DNA of 64,000 bases from Elusimicrobiaceae bacterium. Lineage in GTDB: Bacteria; Elusimicrobiota; Elusimicrobia; Elusimicrobiales; Elusimicrobiaceae. The notes beneath the pieces are model-generated. The model was given only the letters and a program-made list of their open reading frames with translations, had not been told where the DNA came from and searched no databases. Below are positions 38,341 to 48,642 of the stretch, piece after piece; the stretch's first letter is position 1; every line of letters begins with the position of its first letter. Location: assembly GCA_016281355.1 (NCBI GenBank), contig JAEEIL010000012.1:62001-126000 (forward strand), given 5' to 3'. Made by a program: the position numbers and the translations under genes.

Positions 38341-39353
38341 TGAACAGTAGTTATATTTTGGCAATTGAAACAACCTGTGATGAAACTTCCGCAGCCGTAT
38401 TAAAAGACGGTAAAGAATTGCTTTCAAATGTCATTTATACTCAAATAGATTTACATAAAAAATATGCCGGCGTAGTGCCTGAACTTGCAAGCCGCGCACA
38501 TGCCGCAAAAGTAGCCAGCGTAGTAAGTACTGCTTTAAAGGAAAAACAAATTACGCCGACAACTATCGCTTTTGCAAATGGCCCCGGTTTACCCGGTGGG
38601 CTTTTGGTTGGGCGTGTCGCAGCAGAAACTTTGGGTGCTTTATATAATGTTCCGGTTATGGGCGTTAATCACTTGGAAGGCCATTTATATGCGGCTGAAT
38701 TTGACGGAATTTTTGCAAACAAACCCTTAAAATTCCCTTTAATTTCTTTAATTGTTTCGGGCGGACATACGGAACTTTGGAAAGTGAGCGGTTACGGTAA
38801 ATATAAACTACTGGGAAAAACACGTGATGATGCGGCGGGCGAAGCTTTTGATAAAGTTGCTAAACTCTTAAAATTACCGTACCCGGGCGGGCCCCAAGTT
38901 TCTGCTTTGGCTTTAAAAGGTAAGATAGGCGCGATTAAATTCCCTAGGCCTTTTATGAAAGGTAATTTTGAATTTTCTTTTAGCGGAATTAAGACGGCAG
39001 TAAGTTATTATTTACGGGATCATAAAGACTATAATCCGGCGGATGTTTGCCTTGCTTTTGAAGAAGCCGTTACGGATACTTTGGTTTATAAGACTTTAAG
39101 TGCCGCCAAAAAATATGGTATAAAGAATATTGTTATCGGCGGCGGAGTGTGCGCAAATAAAAAATTACAAAATAAGATGACGGAAGAAGGCAAAAAACTC
39201 GGTTATGAAGTACGTTTTGCGGGCAGGGGTTTGACCTCTGATAATGCCGCAATGCTTGCATTGTGTGCTTTTCATAAATTAAATTATGCTAAAATAAATA
39301 GAAGTATAAAAATAAATCCGAATATGCCTTTAAGGAGTTGGATAAGTAAATGA
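38340..39353 (+). CDS. tsaD: tRNA N6-threonylcarbamoyladenosine synthase subunit TsaD
   Basis: 337 residues, ASKHA fold. AIETTCDETSAAVL at the start, NHLEGHLYAA with the metal-binding HxxxH, LIVSGGHTEL, and the C-terminal GGGVCANKKL and SDNAAMLA match TsaD. It transfers the threonylcarbamoyl group onto A37 of ANN-decoding tRNAs with TsaB and TsaE, which are not in the window. Start and stop both overlap neighbours (TAATG; ATGA), so it is tightly coupled in the operon. Confidence 0.97.
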   Translation: MNSSYILAIETTCDETSAAVLKDGKELLSNVIYTQIDLHKKYAGVVPELASRAHAAKVASVVSTALKEKQITPTTIAFANGPGLPGGLLVGRVAAETLGALYNVPVMGVNHLEGHLYAAEFDGIFANKPLKFPLISLIVSGGHTELWKVSGYGKYKLLGKTRDDAAGEAFDKVAKLLKLPYPGGPQVSALALKGKIGAIKFPRPFMKGNFEFSFSGIKTAVSYYLRDHKDYNPADVCLAFEEAVTDTLVYKTLSAAKKYGIKNIVIGGGVCANKKLQNKMTEEGKKLGYEVRFAGRGLTSDNAAMLALCAFHKLNYAKINRSIKINPNMPLRSWISK

Positions 39354-40552
39354 TTTTTTGGATGCTCCCCGATAGCGGGTTAGAAACTTCAGAAGTTATG
39401 GAAGGCTTTTTAAAAGACTTCTGTCAGCAACATCCTGATATTGAGTTAGATGTGCAGGTAATCAATCGCCGTACTTTATGGAACAAAATTTTCACTTTAA
39501 AGCACGATATCGGCAAGGAAGGTTGCCCTGATTTAATAGCATTTCCACATTATTGGACTTCAATTTTGGCTACGGCTAAACTTCTTGAACCTTTGCAAAA
39601 ATTTGATAAAGATATAACGGTATCCCATGTTCTTGATCCACTCCGTCCTCATTGTTTTTTAAACGATACGGAAGAAATTTATTCCTTTCCGTGGTGGCTT
39701 GATATAACTGCCTTACATTATAGGGAAGATCATTTAAAAGCGGTTACTTCTAAACCGGAAGAAGCCCTTTCTACTTGGCAAGGGATGCTGGATGTTTGTA
39801 AGGAACTTAGAAATTATTTTAATGATGTAGACGATTATTACCCCGTTCAAAACAGTGATTGGCGCGGTTCACTTTCACACAGATGCGTTTTGCCTTGTTT
39901 GTGGAGTAAAGGTGCTTTTTTGTTTTCTAAAGACTTGGAACAATCAGGTTTAAGTATGCCTGCCTTTCAAGAAGGTATGCAAAGTTTTATTGATTTAGCC
40001 TTGAAAGGTTATATGCCTATTTTAAGGGAGCGCAGTTCCATCGGCAATATCTCCGCCGGTAAATCAAGTTTAATTATTACACGTAGGCAAAATATTTCCA
40101 TGTTTGAAGGCGCCCAGTTTAAAGTGCAAACTTTACCTATACCTAAAACAGGTGCACAAAGCGTAAACTACCTTGGCGGTATAAACCTTGGTATTTTGAG
40201 AAAAAGTCAGGAAAGTGAAGCCGCTTATAAACTTTTAAAGTGGCTTGCACAACCTGAAAAACAAATTGCTTATGCCGCTAAAATTGAGGCATTTCCCTCA
40301 TACGACGGTGCTTTTGAAAACTTTTTAATAGCATCCCCTGAAAGAGTAAAAAAATATACAAATATCATTTCTTCAGCACGAACTTTACCAAACCATATAG
40401 TTACAGGTGCCGTGATGGAGATTATGGCTAATGTGATGGGTGCTATTTCAAGTGCAATTTTGATGCGCAAATACACACCGGAACTTTTAACACAAGAACT
40501 TAAAAAGGCGGATAGGGATGTGCAAGAAATACTCCGTCTTTACAAGGATTAG
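39350..40552 (+). CDS. Family-1 extracellular-type solute-binding protein lacking a signal peptide
   Basis: 400 residues with the type-1 periplasmic-binding fold: it starts at the first core strand (MIFWMLPDSG) with the alternating alpha/beta text of sugar-binding proteins (PDLIAFPHYWTSILATAKLLEPL, FPWWLDITALHYRED, and late NYLGGINLGIL, AYKLLKWLAQPEKQIAY). There is no signal peptide and no hydrophobic start, and its start codon is fixed by a 4-base overlap with tsaD, so an upstream exported form is unlikely. No permease or ATPase genes are adjacent. The diguanylate cyclase starts 1 base after its stop. A cytoplasmic ligand-sensing role is an inference. Confidence 0.85.
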   Translation: MIFWMLPDSGLETSEVMEGFLKDFCQQHPDIELDVQVINRRTLWNKIFTLKHDIGKEGCPDLIAFPHYWTSILATAKLLEPLQKFDKDITVSHVLDPLRPHCFLNDTEEIYSFPWWLDITALHYREDHLKAVTSKPEEALSTWQGMLDVCKELRNYFNDVDDYYPVQNSDWRGSLSHRCVLPCLWSKGAFLFSKDLEQSGLSMPAFQEGMQSFIDLALKGYMPILRERSSIGNISAGKSSLIITRRQNISMFEGAQFKVQTLPIPKTGAQSVNYLGGINLGILRKSQESEAAYKLLKWLAQPEKQIAYAAKIEAFPSYDGAFENFLIASPERVKKYTNIISSARTLPNHIVTGAVMEIMANVMGAISSAILMRKYTPELLTQELKKADRDVQEILRLYKD

Positions 40553-40553
40553 T

Positions 40554-42020
40554 ATGGAAACGAACAAAAGAACCTCTTTACTTTATTCTTTTTACCAGGC
40601 CCTTTCCCAACATTTTGGGGATTTATCTTCCTTGCTTTCTAACGCTATGCCGTTGATAGAAGATTATATTGGGGCTGATAGAGTTTTTTATTATGATTGG
40701 GAAGAAAATAAATCAGTCCTTTCTTTAAAAATAATGTGCCAAGGTACAAAATCTTACAGCTTACAGGAAGATATTTTTATTGATAAAGATTCACCGGAAA
40801 TTATAAAACTTTTGCAAGATGGTATTATGGATAGCCCGACATTGGACTATCCTGCCGTATATGTTCTGCTTAAATGGCGTGGCCCCGGTAATAGTATTAA
40901 GACGATGAAAACAGGCAAAATGATGTCAGATTCTTTGGGCGTTTTGCGTGTTGAACGAATAAAAAAGAATGCACCTTTTACACAGGATGAAAAGGAAGTA
41001 TTAATTGAACTTGCGCGTGAACTTTCATCCCGTATCAACTTGACCGAAGTTGATATGTACCATAGTGCGCAGTTAAAACGCGCGGAGGCCATGAACAAAT
41101 TAACAACAGTTTTTGCTACTTCCCTTCGTTTAAGCGATAGTTTAAAAGAAATACTTTTAAGTGTTCAAGATACCTTTAGGTTTGATAGAACATCTTTATA
41201 TTTATGTGACCCTAAAACCAACGAAATTAAAGAAGGTTATTCTGTAGATTTATCGGGTGAGTTTAAAACTTTGGAATTAAGGGCCAATATCAAAAAAGAA
41301 CTTTCTGATGAAGCATCAAACTCCGATATCCGTATGATGATACCGCTATCGGTACAAGGTAAAAATTTGGGCTTTATGTGCTTTGATAATGTTCTTTCCA
41401 GAACGCCGATAAAGAAGGAAGAAGTTTTGTCTTTAAAACAATTTTCCCAGCAAATTGCCTTGGCAATTGATAATGCAAGGCTTTTTGAAAAAGTACAGGA
41501 ACTTTCAAATTATGATGATTTAACCGGCCTTGCTTTAAGACGGTTTTTTAAGGAAACTTTAGCACAAGAAGTGTACCGTTCAAAACGTTTTAACTTGATG
41601 TTTTCATTGATACTTTTGGATATTGACCACTTTAAGAAAATTAATGATACTTACGGCCACCTTTTCGGTGATGCGGCTTTAAAAGCAGTCAGTAATGTTA
41701 TAAAAAACAGTTTACGCCAAACTGATGTTCCTTGCCGCTACGGCGGGGATGAAATGGTTATTCTTCTCCCTCGCACTTCCGGGGAAGAAGCTAAACATAT
41801 TGCCGCTCGTCTTTTAAAGAGAGTTAAAGAAATTGAAATTCCTTCGGATTTAAGCGGCGGAAAGATTGTAAAGTTAACAATCAGCCAAGGTATAGCGGTT
41901 TACCCAACTGATAGCGACGATGTCAATGATTTGTTTAAGTGCGCAGATGATGCCTTGTATCATGTCAAGCAAGGCGGCCGCGGTTTTTATACTTTATACG
42001 AAGAAATAAAGAAAAAATAA
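40554..42020 (+). CDS. GAF-domain diguanylate cyclase (GGDEF)
   Basis: About 488 residues, no membrane helices. Two GAF-like regions (about 20-165 and 180-315) precede a GGDEF domain starting at SNYDDLTGLALRRFF. The active-site motif reads GGDEM, an allowed variant, and the product-inhibition I-site RxxD (RQTD) sits five residues before it, so both catalysis and feedback control look intact. It makes cyclic di-GMP in response to a cytoplasmic signal. AAGGA precedes the ATG. Last gene of the ctpA-tsaD unit and partnered with the signal-less solute-binding protein. Targets such as pili or glycan genes are nearby but not shown. Confidence 0.92.
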   Translation: METNKRTSLLYSFYQALSQHFGDLSSLLSNAMPLIEDYIGADRVFYYDWEENKSVLSLKIMCQGTKSYSLQEDIFIDKDSPEIIKLLQDGIMDSPTLDYPAVYVLLKWRGPGNSIKTMKTGKMMSDSLGVLRVERIKKNAPFTQDEKEVLIELARELSSRINLTEVDMYHSAQLKRAEAMNKLTTVFATSLRLSDSLKEILLSVQDTFRFDRTSLYLCDPKTNEIKEGYSVDLSGEFKTLELRANIKKELSDEASNSDIRMMIPLSVQGKNLGFMCFDNVLSRTPIKKEEVLSLKQFSQQIALAIDNARLFEKVQELSNYDDLTGLALRRFFKETLAQEVYRSKRFNLMFSLILLDIDHFKKINDTYGHLFGDAALKAVSNVIKNSLRQTDVPCRYGGDEMVILLPRTSGEEAKHIAARLLKRVKEIEIPSDLSGGKIVKLTISQGIAVYPTDSDDVNDLFKCADDALYHVKQGGRGFYTLYEEIKKK

Positions 42021-42145: not shown

Positions 42146-42670
42146 ATGAGAAATGAAAAAGGTTTTACATTAATTGAATTATTAGTGGTTGTTTTAATTA
42201 TCGGTATACTTGCCGGTATTGCCTTGCCACAATATCGTATGGCGGTAACAAAATCTAGAGTAGCAAGCATTTTACCGCTTATGCGCCGTTGGAAAGATGC
42301 ATTAATGGAATATAATTTACAACATGGTAATTATGAAGTAAATGATGCATCTATTTTGGGAGTTAATTGGCCAAGTGACTGGAAAAATGGGATTGGTAAT
42401 CCCTGTGAAAATAGTTTGTATTGTAAAAATGATTATTGGGATGATTGTACAGCCAATGAGGTAGGCACGGGTTATGTTTACTGTAATAATTATAATCTAG
42501 GGTTCGGTATATACATGTATCAACCTGATGACCCTGATATGGACGAAATTTACCATGATAAAGTAATTTGTGACGCAAATAATGCCGTGGCTCATAAAGT
42601 TTGTAAAGCATTAGGTGGCGAATTAATAGATGGTGGCGAAGATGATTGGGGTTCATATTCTCTTAATTAA
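42146..42670 (+). CDS. Type IV prepilin-like protein 1
   Basis: 174 residues. Class III leader MRNEKG is cut by prepilin peptidase before Phe; the mature protein has Glu at +5 and the hydrophobic helix FTLIELLVVVLIIGILAGIALPQY. The C-terminal globular domain is Asp/Asn/Tyr- and Cys-rich (about eight Cys), suggesting disulfides outside the cell. It could be a major or minor pilin or a type II secretion pseudopilin. No assembly genes are adjacent; it stands alone between a palindromic promoter and a strong terminator. Confidence 0.92.
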   Translation: MRNEKGFTLIELLVVVLIIGILAGIALPQYRMAVTKSRVASILPLMRRWKDALMEYNLQHGNYEVNDASILGVNWPSDWKNGIGNPCENSLYCKNDYWDDCTANEVGTGYVYCNNYNLGFGIYMYQPDDPDMDEIYHDKVICDANNAVAHKVCKALGGELIDGGEDDWGSYSLN

Positions 42671-42683
42671 AAAATTGTTAAAT

Positions 42684-42722
42684 AAAAAATACCGTTGGTG
42701 TTAAACCAACGGTATTTTTTTG
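42684..42722. terminator. Bidirectional terminator between pilin 1 and def
   Basis: A perfect 15-bp stem (AAAAAATACCGTTGG with its complement ending TTTTTT) with A and T tracts on the two sides. Confidence 0.92.
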
Positions 42723-42737
42723 TTTATAAAATCAAAT

Positions 42738-43253
42738 TTACCACTCTTTGGAAAGTTCGGCAATTTCTTTTAAGGCTTTGTCTTTGGCAACTTTGGGTAA
42801 ATTGTCAATAAAGGTTTTTCCGTTTAAATGGTCAATTTCATGTTGTAAAATTATGGCTAAAAAGCCTTTTGCGGTAAGTTCAACCGGAAGGCCACGCTCA
42901 TCCAAATATTTAACTTTAACTTCGGTTGCACGTTCAATTTCAACGCAAAGGCCCGGGAAAGATAAACACCCTTCCTTACTCAAGACTTTACCTTTTTTAG
43001 TAGTAATTTCAGGATTAATTAAAACATAGCGTTTATATTTGCCTTCTTCTTTTTGCGGCAACATTACAACCACTAAAGCAATATCAAGCCCGACTTGCGG
43101 TGCGGCGAGCCCAACACCTTCCATCATTAAACAGGTTTGCGTCATGTCGTTGATGATTTTAGGGAGTTTCTTTTCCATTAAATTAAAATTAATTCTTTTG
43201 GTTTTTTGTGTAAGGATTTCTTCCCCGTATTTATAGATTTTTAAAATTGCCAT
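42738..43253 (-). CDS. def: Peptide deformylase
   Basis: 171 residues. All three motifs are present: GVGLAAPQVG (about 46-55), EGCLSFPG (about 93-100) and HEIDHLNG (about 136-143); Cys and the two His bind the metal, Glu is catalytic. It removes the formyl group from nascent chains. Unusually it is the last gene of a unit with an EIIA protein and an APC permease rather than beside fmt; the spacing to the permease is 8 bases. Confidence 0.97.
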   Translation of the reverse strand: MAILKIYKYGEEILTQKTKRINFNLMEKKLPKIINDMTQTCLMMEGVGLAAPQVGLDIALVVVMLPQKEEGKYKRYVLINPEITTKKGKVLSKEGCLSFPGLCVEIERATEVKVKYLDERGLPVELTAKGFLAIILQHEIDHLNGKTFIDNLPKVAKDKALKEIAELSKEW

Positions 43254-43261
43254 AATAACTC

Positions 43262-45274
43262 CTAAAATTTAAATGATACTTCGCGACCGGGCCACAAAAT
43301 TTCAGCCATAATTTTATATTTTTCAGGTATTGTTGCCCAAGCCATAACCATATATTCCATCTGTTCATTTGCACCGTATGTGCCGGAAACACCCATAACA
43401 ATCTTTTGTGCTTTTGCCGCATACGCTACTTGTGCCGCAGCGGTAAAAAAGTCATTACTGTTAACCATTATCGGGTGCACGGGGCGGCCGAAATTTTCCG
43501 CCTTTAAGATCACTTGTGTGAAAAGTTCCTTATAATCTACGGTTCTGCCTTCTCTATCTTTTCCGGCGTTCCAGTTATCAAGCGGGCGTACATATAGCAC
43601 AATAATATTGATTTCGCTGTCTTTTAAATCTGTTAAAACCTTTTCTAAGTGATATAAATTATCCGCATTTTTAACAGTAACCAAAATATTTTCTTTATAA
43701 GGCAAATTTTCAAATGCTTTGTTTAATTCCGGCACTTGTGTTTCATTAAGTTTTTCACGGGGGCCTTCCTCAAACATAATATTGGCTTTTTTGGCATTTA
43801 AACGGCCTGATATGTAAAAAATTGTGAATAATATTAAACCAAATGATACACCGGAGATTGTTGCAACTTTCTTAGTAATTAAGTTAATACCGGCAAGTGA
43901 TATAACAATTAAACCGACCAGAGTTGCACCTATCGGTATGTAAAAATGGTCAAATTTTATATTTAACGGCATCATAAACTCACGTTTCTGTTCGCGGTTT
44001 TTAAAGCGTAAAACAACAATTGATACCATTTCAAACACAAAACTCCAAAGTACACCGAAGGCATATGCTTGGCCGATTAAATAAACGTGTCCGCGCGATA
44101 AAAATATGACAAGGAGTTGTGTCAAGCAAATAGTGTTTATTATATGGTAAGTAGTGCCGTATTTTTTATGGATTTTCCGAAACCAATCCGTTAAAATACC
44201 GGATTCCGCTATACGGTTCATTGTTCCGTTTGCACCGATAATTGAAGTATTTACCGCACCGCAAAGCATTAAACCGCCGGCAAAAACTACCGCTGCTTGC
44301 AGTAACAGTTTCAAGAATGTCGGCCCTTTTAAGGACATTGCAAGGCCTGAAATTAAATTATCGCTATACTTTGCCATATCGGCAGGGTCAATAATTAAAG
44401 CGGCTAAGAAAGTTAAACCGCCTGTAAAAACGACGGCAAAAACAAAGATTATCATTGAAGTCTTTTTAAGATTTTGGACCTTAGGATATTCAAGTTCTCT
44501 AAAAACTTGTGCTAAAGTTTCAAGACCGCTTAAAGCCAAAACAGAGTGCCCTAAAGCAATCAGTACACCGATATATCCGACTTTTTGCATAAACGGAATA
44601 TTTGCCGCCCAACCCATTGCTTCTTGGGTAAGTTGCGGTTTAAGGGGGGGTAAAGTAACAGTTCCGCGTAAAGCCAAAGTAATTGCGGACCATAAAAATA
44701 AGATGCCGCAAATAATTAAGGAAAGTTTGATAATTTTTGCGCTTTTTTCGCTTGAATCTTCTATACCTTTAACATTTTGATACCAAAAGTAAATTACCAC
44801 CGCCGCGGCAAAAATCATTGAAAATGTTTCCGGGTTCAAAGAAAAATTTATTTTAAAAATAGTAAAAGTGGAATTGATTAAACCTATCAAATAATTTCCG
44901 GCGCTGATTCCGCTGATAGGGCCTGTTAAGGCCATATCAAATAAAAGTGCTGAAGCGGCAAGTTGTGCGGCCTTTTCCCCAAGGCCTGCACTTACGACGG
45001 GGAAAACACCGCTTCTGGTAAACATGGAGCATGATTCCAAATACATCATTAGCAGTAAACCGGAGAAAAACGATACCCCCAAAATATACCAAGGGAAAGC
45101 CGGGCCAAAGGCATTATAAGCAATACCTCCGGCATAGAAAGCGCTTGAGCCAAAGTCACATAAAACAATAGCGGCTGCTTTCCAAAAAGTAATAAATGTA
45201 AGCATAGCGGTTGATATGACCACCACACTTTTTACCTTAGATTTTGATTGGGTGTTTGTTGAATCTTCATTCAT
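43262..45274 (-). CDS. APC-superfamily permease with C-terminal USP-like domain
   Basis: 670 residues. About 12 membrane helices over residues 15-490; early text ITFWKAAAIVLCDFGSSAFYAGGIA resembles the unwound helix-1 substrate site of APC transporters. A cytosolic region of about 165 residues follows, whose alternating strands and helices (ENILVTVKNADNLYHLEKVLTDLK, INIIVLYVRPL, AAQVAYAAKAQKIVMGVSG) look like a universal-stress-protein fold ending in a nucleotide-loop-like GxSG. Substrate is probably an amino acid or related cation. The EIIA gene sits 2 bases upstream. Confidence 0.85.
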   Translation of the reverse strand: MNEDSTNTQSKSKVKSVVVISTAMLTFITFWKAAAIVLCDFGSSAFYAGGIAYNAFGPAFPWYILGVSFFSGLLLMMYLESCSMFTRSGVFPVVSAGLGEKAAQLAASALLFDMALTGPISGISAGNYLIGLINSTFTIFKINFSLNPETFSMIFAAAVVIYFWYQNVKGIEDSSEKSAKIIKLSLIICGILFLWSAITLALRGTVTLPPLKPQLTQEAMGWAANIPFMQKVGYIGVLIALGHSVLALSGLETLAQVFRELEYPKVQNLKKTSMIIFVFAVVFTGGLTFLAALIIDPADMAKYSDNLISGLAMSLKGPTFLKLLLQAAVVFAGGLMLCGAVNTSIIGANGTMNRIAESGILTDWFRKIHKKYGTTYHIINTICLTQLLVIFLSRGHVYLIGQAYAFGVLWSFVFEMVSIVVLRFKNREQKREFMMPLNIKFDHFYIPIGATLVGLIVISLAGINLITKKVATISGVSFGLILFTIFYISGRLNAKKANIMFEEGPREKLNETQVPELNKAFENLPYKENILVTVKNADNLYHLEKVLTDLKDSEINIIVLYVRPLDNWNAGKDREGRTVDYKELFTQVILKAENFGRPVHPIMVNSNDFFTAAAQVAYAAKAQKIVMGVSGTYGANEQMEYMVMAWATIPEKYKIMAEILWPGREVSFKF

Positions 45275-45276
45275 AT

Positions 45277-45708
45277 TTAAAAGGGTAATTTAGCGGCAAT
45301 TTCTTCGGTACTTTTAAGGTTGCATAATTCTTCAATAAAAGCCGGGGTAAAAGTTTCAGCCAATTTTGCAAGCAACTTTAAATGCTCTGGAAAATATTGT
45401 TCCCCACTGGGTGATAAGAATAAAAACATAACTTTTATATTCTTACCGTAATTATCTTGTACACCTTGAGGTATAACCGCCAGTACAGCCCTAAAAGAAG
45501 TTAAGCCTTCCAAGCGAGCATGCGGTATACTTAAACCTGATTCAAGCGTGGTACTTATGCCTTGTTCACGTTTGATTATAGCTTTGAAAACTTCCTCTTG
45601 GTTCAAAGCAGTATCTTTGCAGATATTTGATACCAAATACTGTACGAGTTCCTGCTTAGTTGTAAGGTTATTTATTAGGAAAATTTGTTGTGGATTTAAT
45701 TTTATCTC
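45277..45708 (-). CDS. PTS EIIA type-2 domain protein (PtsN/FruA-like)
   Basis: 143 residues, a single EIIA(Fru/Mtl/Ntr) domain. The phosphorylatable histidine is His64 in SGLSIPHARLEGL; the flanking IKVMFLFLSPSGEQYFPEHLKLLAKLAE is typical. No EIIB or EIIC is nearby, so it is more likely regulatory (PTS-Ntr-like) than a sugar transporter part. It heads a unit with the APC permease and def. ATG 45708 gives the normal N-terminus; a longer in-frame start at 45741 adds 11 residues without a ribosome-binding site. Confidence 0.9.
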   Translation of the reverse strand, partial: EIKLNPQQIFLINNLTTKQELVQYLVSNICKDTALNQEEVFKAIIKREQGISTTLESGLSIPHARLEGLTSFRAVLAVIPQGVQDNYGKNIKVMFLFLSPSGEQYFPEHLKLLAKLAETFTPAFIEELCNLKSTEEIAAKLPF

Positions 45709-45841
45709 CATATATATACATGGTACAAAATAGACGGGCATATTTTCAAGTGGAAAGGCAGAAAAAATGCAATCATTGTTTTTTTGTCAGGTTTTATTAG
45801 ATGAAGCATATCAATACGCTTTTATTCCAATTACAACAATA

Positions 45842-45870: not shown

Positions 45871-45917
45871 TTCAATATAAGTATAAAGACTTTACATAAG
45901 TGAATGTAGGAGAAATT

Positions 45918-46421
45918 ATGAAAAACAAATTAGGATTTACTTTGCTTGAATTATTAGTGGTAGTTTTAATTATCGGTATACTCGCAAGTATTGCTTTGCC
46001 GCAATATCAATTGTCAGTAGGCAGAAGTAGGCTTTCTGAACTTAAAATCAGGGCCAACGCAATAGCCGAGGCCGGGCATATGTACGTTTTGGAACATGAT
46101 GGAATACCGGAAGAGGAACAGCAAGGAACACTCCATTCCTTAGATCTATCAAGATTAAATACAGAATTTCCGGAAGATGATATCTCTTGCGATTTTTATG
46201 GAGCGGGAGATCGATATATCACTGTTTGCAGTAGAGTTTTTTCCGGTGCACATGTCGGATACGTAATTCGAAACTTAGATCCTTTTGGATGTAGAGTGGT
46301 GGGAACCCAAGATTCAAATCATATTGCTAGCAAATTGTGTGAACAAGATACCGGTGATGCAAATCCGGACTGTGGACTTGGCGATGAGGATCAGGGTAGA
46401 TGCTTTTATCACTATCAATAG
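45918..46421 (+). CDS. Type IV prepilin-like protein 2
   Basis: 167 residues. Leader MKNKLG, then FTLLELLVVVLIIGILASIALPQYQ with Glu at +5. The C-terminal domain has six or seven Cys and an acidic character (PEEEQQG, GLGDEDQG). ATG 45918 is preceded by TAGGAGAA; an upstream in-frame GTG/ATG at 45900 would lengthen the leader beyond the class III norm. Monocistronic with its own promoter. Confidence 0.92.
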   Translation: MKNKLGFTLLELLVVVLIIGILASIALPQYQLSVGRSRLSELKIRANAIAEAGHMYVLEHDGIPEEEQQGTLHSLDLSRLNTEFPEDDISCDFYGAGDRYITVCSRVFSGAHVGYVIRNLDPFGCRVVGTQDSNHIASKLCEQDTGDANPDCGLGDEDQGRCFYHYQ

Positions 46422-48117: not shown

Positions 48118-48642
48118 ATGAAAAATAAAAAAGGGTTTACTTTACTTGAATTATTAGTTGTAGTTTTAATTATTGGCATACTTGCAGGTATTGCACTTCC
48201 GCAGTATAGATATTCTGTAATGAAAACAAAATATATGCGCATGGCAGACATGGCAAGAGTTATAAAAGACGCGCAGGAAAGATATTTTTTGGCACATGGT
48301 AATTATGCTAAAAATTTTTCTGATTTAGATATTGATTATACACTGGAAGAAACAGACCCTATAAGTGAAGCTGATTATGCAGGGGAAGCAGGGATTATTG
48401 ATGATATACTGATACAATTATATACTACTCAAGCCATGGTATACTGGATGAAAAACAATGATCTTTATATGATGTATTCACTTCGTTTAGATAATGTAAA
48501 TATGTGGGGCGGAGCCCATGCCATGTGCGCTGCTTATCCTGATAGTGGAGATATGGGTAAAAAAATATGCAATTCTTTCCCCGGTGCATGGAACTGTACA
48601 GATGTCCCGTCACTTAACAGATATTCTTGCCGTATTAATTAG
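48118..48642 (+). CDS. Type IV prepilin-like protein 3
   Basis: 174 residues. Leader MKNKKG, then FTLLELLVVVLIIGILAGIALPQYR with Glu at +5. The C-terminal domain is Met/Tyr/Asp-rich with four Cys in the last 45 residues (CAAYPDSG, ICNSF, WNCTD, YSCRIN), arranged like the C-terminal disulfide region of pilins. TAGGAGA precedes the ATG. It converges with recG. The first 90 bases are close to those of the other two prepilin genes. Confidence 0.92.
   Translation: MKNKKGFTLLELLVVVLIIGILAGIALPQYRYSVMKTKYMRMADMARVIKDAQERYFLAHGNYAKNFSDLDIDYTLEETDPISEADYAGEAGIIDDILIQLYTTQAMVYWMKNNDLYMMYSLRLDNVNMWGGAHAMCAAYPDSGDMGKKICNSFPGAWNCTDVPSLNRYSCRIN

Follow-up and report, generated by a model that had tools for sequence, protein, structure and literature searches.

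A PTS EIIA protein encoded beside a predicted K+ importer of KimA/KUP type in an Elusimicrobiaceae bacterium

A three-gene unit and its products

We examined a unit of three genes in a stretch of 64,000 nucleotides (the window) from an Elusimicrobiaceae bacterium (assembly GCA_016281355.1, contig JAEEIL010000012.1, positions 62,001 to 126,000). Its three minus-strand open reading frames (ORFs) lie in the order EIIA, permease, def, with intergenic gaps of 2 and 8 bases, and encode an EIIA protein of the phosphotransferase system (PTS), an APC-fold permease with a cytosolic C-terminal domain and a peptide deformylase (Table 1). A preliminary description made from the letters of the window had reported this arrangement, and the ORF and Pfam results bear it out. 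It had gone on to propose that phosphorylated EIIA and a nucleotide-sensing domain of the permease jointly gate amino acid uptake, with the deformylase coupled to it; the observation is confirmed and the interpretation is partly supported.

Table 1. Features of the unit, with positions in the window
Feature	Position	Strand	Remarks
EIIA (PTS_EIIA_2)	45277..45741	-	154 aa; Pfam PTS_EIIA_2 78.2 bits
KimA/KUP-like APC-fold permease, predicted K+ importer, with C-terminal USP-fold cytosolic domain	43262..45274	-	670 aa; Pfam AA_permease_2 123.5 bits
Permease C-terminal USP-fold domain, residues 500-670	43265..43777	-	Lacks the full USP ATP motif; putative EIIA docking site
def, peptide deformylase	42738..43253	-	171 aa; Pfam Pep_deformylase 166.5 bits
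Inverted repeat, likely terminator	42684..42720	.	16 pairs, just beyond def; consensus match only

The permease and its probable cargo

Among the APC proteins compared, KimA, the K+/H+ symporter of Bacillus subtilis, is closest to the permease. With its AlphaFold model (mean predicted local distance difference test score (pLDDT) 72.2, predicted template modelling score 0.63), Foldseek placed KimA entries at ranks 1, 2 and 4; the first amino acid transporter stood at rank 25, and the rows before it were mostly cation-chloride cotransporters (NKCC1, NCC, KCC). KimA also took ranks 1-3 in VIA (Z 34.2-35.9, 511-531 residues aligned), with a high root-mean-square deviation (rmsd) of about 16 that stems from a different placement of the cytosolic domain. 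In hhalign, the profile built from 68 relatives matched KimA with 97.8% probability over KimA residues 91-405, compared with 51% for GadC and less than 1% for AdiC, CadB and Kup, and in two-sequence BLASTP the E value was 4e-5 for KimA vs. more than 0.1 for each of the other four. Identity to KimA is 24% over 204 residues, and searching PDB sequences with the permease, by phmmer or by profile, returned nothing meaningful; the link to KimA is visible solely by structure and profile-to-sequence comparison.

By alignment, most of the ion-site residues of KimA are kept in the permease. For KimA, K+ binding is ascribed to the ligands D36, T121 and Y377, the likely outer gate to Y43 and proton coupling to E233, while D117 is described as forming a cytosolic K+ site that is dispensable for transport (PMC6994465). 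Permease residues D113, T117, S121, E252 and Y404 met KimA D117, T121, S125, E233 and Y377 in 16/16 alignments, as did S249 and KimA T230. The glutamate of transmembrane helix (TM) 6 says little alone, being present in 5/6 other APC permeases that we compared (AdiC, CadB, GadC and the Elusimicrobia permeases L144-L146, one of the six coming from the source genome). The motif D..[ST][ST]..Y of TM1, on the other hand, occurs within the first 130 residues of all 68 relatives and in none of these six. KimA (D36/Y43), Kup (D23/Y30) and the Elusimicrobia permeases L139 and L140 also carry it, and shuffling residues 21-80 of the window protein produced it in 116 of 100000 trials. If ungapped, the end points of the Pfam matches (window residue 28 at profile position 1, KimA residue 27 at position 4) place D40 and KimA D36 on one column. 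Kup (TrkD) of E. coli shares the TM1 motif, as D-x-G-[ST]-S-x-x-Y, and its TM3, TM6 and TM10 residues align with those of the permease, with Kup E116 in the place of D113. However, the profile does not match it. We do not claim membership of the Kup branch, given that the permease has no match to PF02705 (K_trans) and that hhalign gave no link to Kup.

Several observations weigh against a K+ importer. The alignment of TM1 is unstable: KimA D36 met D40 in 6/19 alignments and Y43 met Y47 in 2/19, both of the first set, the D36/D40 pairing occurring in 2/2, then 0/1, then 4/16 alignments of the successive sets. In those 4/16, Y43 met F46, and in the other 12/16 D36 and Y43 met A23 and F30. The hhalign match leaves TM1 uncovered, and residues 1-35 of the model have a pLDDT below 50. 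Because residue-by-residue alignments are unstable and the later ones contradict the first, the claim for TM1 is left to the motif by itself. The permease also lacks a match to the Kup family, albeit KimA has none either. Finally, the membrane part fits ApcT well too (VIA Z 31.6, 396 aligned, rmsd 2.8), and the fold alone does not reveal the substrate.

The cargo that the preliminary description had assumed must also be weighed. The permease might move amino acids or another organic solute, with EIIA making transport respond to the nitrogen or energy status. The AA_permease_2 score would suit such a role, as would the fit of the membrane domain to ApcT, LAT and CAT structures, the weak profile match to GadC, and the scores of L139, a related Elusimicrobia permease of 634 aa that shares the TM1 motif and has a Usp domain, against amino acid transporter models, although all of these scores lie under cut-off. 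However, KimA bears the Pfam label AA_permease_2 too, and no other, and "amino acid permease" is no more than a Pfam name. The kept KimA/Kup ion-site residues and the absence of the TM1 motif from the six other APC permeases argue against an organic solute, and the source genome has a separate APC permease that resembles AdiC, encoded at its one other AA_permease_2 place. We regard an organic cargo as rather unlikely, and predict from sequence and structure that the permease is a K+ importer of KimA/KUP type rather than an amino acid transporter.

The C-terminal domain of about 165 residues, described beforehand as USP-like, has the universal stress protein (USP) fold according to its model. 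Modelled alone (mean pLDDT 84.5), it matched USP 3qtb in the top row of VIA (Z 13.1, 120 aligned, rmsd 3.0), universal stress proteins in Foldseek (E 1.1e-4) and the c-di-AMP-binding domain of KdpD (Z 11.4). With E values of up to 1 allowed, Pfam Usp was reported for 22/24 aligned members; the window protein (E 0.011, 16.8 bits) falls under the cut-off of 24. Searches of the domain against PDB sequences with phmmer and profiles gave nothing meaningful. The cytosolic domain of KimA is described as PPAT-like (PMC10284832), whereas PPATs matched the present domain less well than USPs (Z 10.3 vs. 13.1), a further point against a close parallel with KimA. No KimA entry was among the 50 VIA matches listed for the domain, which excludes nothing. 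The motif G-2x-G-9x-G[ST], which we take to be the ATP-binding motif of USPs, was found in 0/68 relatives, and on that ground we discarded the idea that nucleotides are sensed through the classic USP motif. A cyclase for c-di-AMP (PF02457) was likewise found in 0/60 genomes of the family, while 11/14 control genomes were positive. The nucleotide-sensing domain proposed earlier thus finds no backing in these searches, though the domain may bind another ligand.

EIIA and its pairing with the permease

EIIA is, by its sequence, a PTS_EIIA_2 protein resembling both PtsN and fructose EIIA. Its likely start is the internal ATG at 45708, near where most matched homologues begin; counted from there, the phospho-His in the motif SIPHAR is residue 64, in agreement with the preliminary description, and it is residue 74 of the long ORF. 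The histidine is invariant in 15/15 aligned EIIA sequences. Among 78 distinct EIIA ORFs, ten failed a strict phosphosite pattern, of which eight still have the histidine by eye. The two that have lost it (L075:5350-5814 and L080:1318-1770) both lie upstream of a permease. These two count against control by phosphorylation, which would then not be needed everywhere, and suggest a binding role without phosphorylation at these two loci.

A putative phosphate donor is encoded in the source genome as an 842-aa EIIA-Glc/HPr/Enzyme I fusion (L138:3031-5559, contig C18), and Enzyme I is present in 60/60 family genomes. The fusion is the sole place of Enzyme I found in the source genome; in most family genomes Enzyme I sits in a frame of about 550-620 aa, unlike the 842-aa fusion. 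A second HPr belongs to a cluster away from the unit that holds HprK, RapZ, EIIA-Man, EIIB, EIIC, EIID and HPr. The earlier remark that EIIA has no EIIB or EIIC holds for the unit but not for the genome, which has these mannose-type components; a genome-wide search for fructose-type EIIB/EIIC was not made. Could EIIA instead donate its phosphate to some partner in the manner of a sugar PTS, with the cluster a remnant of a sugar transporter? Its scores against the fructose EIIA model of NCBIfam (53.6 bits) and the PtsN model TIGR01419 (45.6 bits, cut-off 138.7 bits) are alike and both under cut-off, so that it is not filed as PtsN and a sugar EIIA would fit as well. However, the unit has no EIIB, the permease does not belong to a PTS EIIC family by Pfam, and the neighbour of EIIA is an APC permease in all three locus sets described below. 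We consider a sugar PTS remnant highly improbable.

A CNNM-CBS membrane protein encoded in the source genome (L136:3703-5223 = L001:412-1932, contig C38) carries a second PTS_EIIA_2 domain as a C-terminal fusion. Another 17 EIIA places from the family search fall within open frames that span some 400-560 aa, one of them broken by an internal stop, and the fusion may be common in the family. It echoes the binding of PtsN to the CorC domain of YcgO.

We followed the pair in three overlapping locus sets, which share some assemblies: 60 genomes of the family, 51 named genome loci, and 20 deeper places picked from 17 genomes of other families and from G003. The permease is present in 42/60 family genomes (43 with any match, that of G005 being a weak match to another permease), and 41 of these 42 have EIIA immediately upstream on the same strand, G003 having it on a different contig. 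EIIA is upstream in 50/51 named loci and 15/20 deeper loci, with def downstream in 39/51 and 13/20, respectively. Four of the 12 named loci without def end at most 100 bases from the permease, and the deeper locus L114 was scored as lacking def because its deformylase match falls in a 1023-aa overlapping frame. The deeper places were drawn from a phylum-wide search, which found a permease match in 148/340 genomes. The preliminary description had tied its proposal to an HPr/Enzyme I relay and to conserved neighbours. Both HPr and Enzyme I are present, and the pair is kept both within the family and outside it, so control of the transporter by EIIA is plausible.

Loss of the two genes is also correlated. 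A stand-alone EIIA occurs in 42/42 family genomes with the permease vs. 7/18 without it (Fisher p 9e-8, kinship ignored), and within genus g6 in 20/20 vs. 6/16 (p 3e-5, kinship again ignored); eleven of the 18 permease-less genomes thus lack both. However, the seven others keep EIIA directly beside def, all with the histidine, which indicates that EIIA has or had another role and counters an exclusive partnership. Permeases without a nearby EIIA (L115, L122, L124 and L128) point the same way; L122 and L124 are second permease copies, and L120 offers just 187 upstream bases. Such cases would be expected if EIIA, permease and def were an old shared operon in which EIIA regulates other targets and does not act on the permease. 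Against such an operon stand the co-loss in 11 genomes and the persistence of the pair beyond def: eight of the 51 named loci have at least 2,671 bases downstream and no def within 400 bases, yet seven of the eight keep EIIA. In the seven permease-less genomes, moreover, the conserved EIIA positions within 47-56, before the histidine, differ in 21/63 cells vs. 31/224 at other conserved positions, a post hoc observation on seven related sequences. PtsN is also described as acting on K+ transporters (PMC13104625). Pairing, co-loss and the drift of residues 47-56 argue for a partnership of EIIA and permease, and we judge an EIIA indifferent to its neighbour to be unlikely.

The deformylase is probably a passenger. 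The gene def is an ordinary housekeeping gene, and in 4/12 loci inspected the gene after it resembles, by eye, methionyl-tRNA formyltransferase. Its place next to EIIA in seven genomes that lack the permease is as expected of an operon neighbour, and no sign of regulatory coupling was seen at the loci examined; the coupling of deformylase to uptake is thus not upheld.

We also searched for other K+ importers. TrkH, Kup and KdpA were not found in the source genome, K+ channels and other K+ importers not having been searched for. Across the 60 family genomes TrkH occurs in 38, KdpA in three (two over cut-off, the third overlapping the TrkH place of its genome) and Kup in none. The permease or TrkH is present in 58/60 genomes, with neither in G032 and G037 (64% complete): 22 have both, 20 the permease only and 16 TrkH only. 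Within g6 the figures are 16 both, 4 permease only, 15 TrkH only and 1 neither. Descent confounds this pattern (p 0.0085), as one genus accounts for 13 of the 22 TrkH-less genomes, which weakens its value for a K+ cargo; we rejected it as proof of shared function because relatives are not independent.

The source genome comprises 1.5 Mb in 46 contigs. The window permease is 89-95% identical to those of the four nearest named loci (L037-L040), all from assemblies named Elusimicrobia, Elusimicrobiaceae or Elusimicrobium, and since one of these stems from the rumen of a water buffalo, the window organism probably comes from an animal gut. The inverted repeat beyond def likely marks the end of the unit, at a density of terminator-like sites in the region of 6 observed vs. 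3.6 expected. An Rfam scan of the window found two tRNAs and no other matches. Three separate type IV pilin-like genes lie near the unit on the opposite strand (42146-42670, 45900-46421 and 48118-48642) and begin nearly identically, with GFTLxELLVVVLIIGILA. At 39350-42020, a solute-binding-protein-like gene shares a 35-base overlap with a gene for a GAF-GGDEF diguanylate cyclase; inspection by eye revealed no obvious signal peptide in the former.

A proposed control of K+ import

On balance, we lean towards the unit being a regulated K+ importer in which EIIA gates K+ import by its phosphorylation state. Enzyme I and HPr would carry phosphate from phosphoenolpyruvate (PEP) to EIIA; unphosphorylated EIIA would bind the permease on its cytosolic side, most likely at the USP-fold domain, and change, probably lower, K+ uptake; phosphorylation would free it again. 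Such a switch would tie K+ import to the PEP/pyruvate or carbon-nitrogen state, in line with what has been proposed for proteobacterial PtsN, and the deformylase would ride along as a housekeeping passenger. The binding step is proposed by analogy. In E. coli, unphosphorylated PtsN is reported to interact with TrkA and KdpD as well as with the antiporter YcgO, whose cytosolic region it contacts, possibly at the CorC domain; this last contact is weakened by phosphorylation (PMC13104625; PMC11808508).

KimA is inhibited by c-di-AMP. Since no recognisable cyclase is present in this family, EIIA may fill the regulatory place of that nucleotide. A fuller version can be offered tentatively, as possible rather than probable: EIIA would dock on the USP-fold tail of a KimA-type importer and close it when unphosphorylated, replacing the c-di-AMP of Bacillus, so that the PEP-fed relay would set K+ uptake directly, in the source genome through what is possibly the main K+ importer.

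Known systems resemble the unit in part. It shares with KimA the APC fold with a cytosolic alpha/beta domain, but its cytosolic domain is USP-like and EIIA is encoded next door. With the PTS-Ntr of proteobacteria it shares a PTS_EIIA_2 protein with a phospho-His, the Enzyme I/HPr relay and a link to K+ transport (PMC13104625; PMC9239096; PMC11808508), whereas here the adjoining gene encodes a KimA/KUP-like importer with a USP-fold tail, EIIA falls under the PtsN cut-off, and we infer the contact. A second ptsN lies in the kdp operon in about 10% of alphaproteobacterial genomes, again joining an EIIA gene and a K+ transporter in one operon (PMC13104625), but Kdp is a P-type ATPase and the present permease a secondary transporter. 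The passage on distribution in a review of the PTS-Ntr names other phyla, and "Elusimicrob" does not occur in that passage (PMC13104625). Our search of titles and abstracts returned no report of an EIIA with a KimA/KUP-like permease, or of K+ transport in Elusimicrobia.

The purpose of K+ control by the PTS-Ntr in proteobacteria is described as still unclear (PMC13104625). If the proposal is true, an EIIA/K+-importer pair in another phylum would suggest that the tie between PEP status and K+ is ancient and general, and the pair would offer a compact two-gene system for studying direct gating. The widely used label "amino acid permease" can conceal likely K+ transporters.

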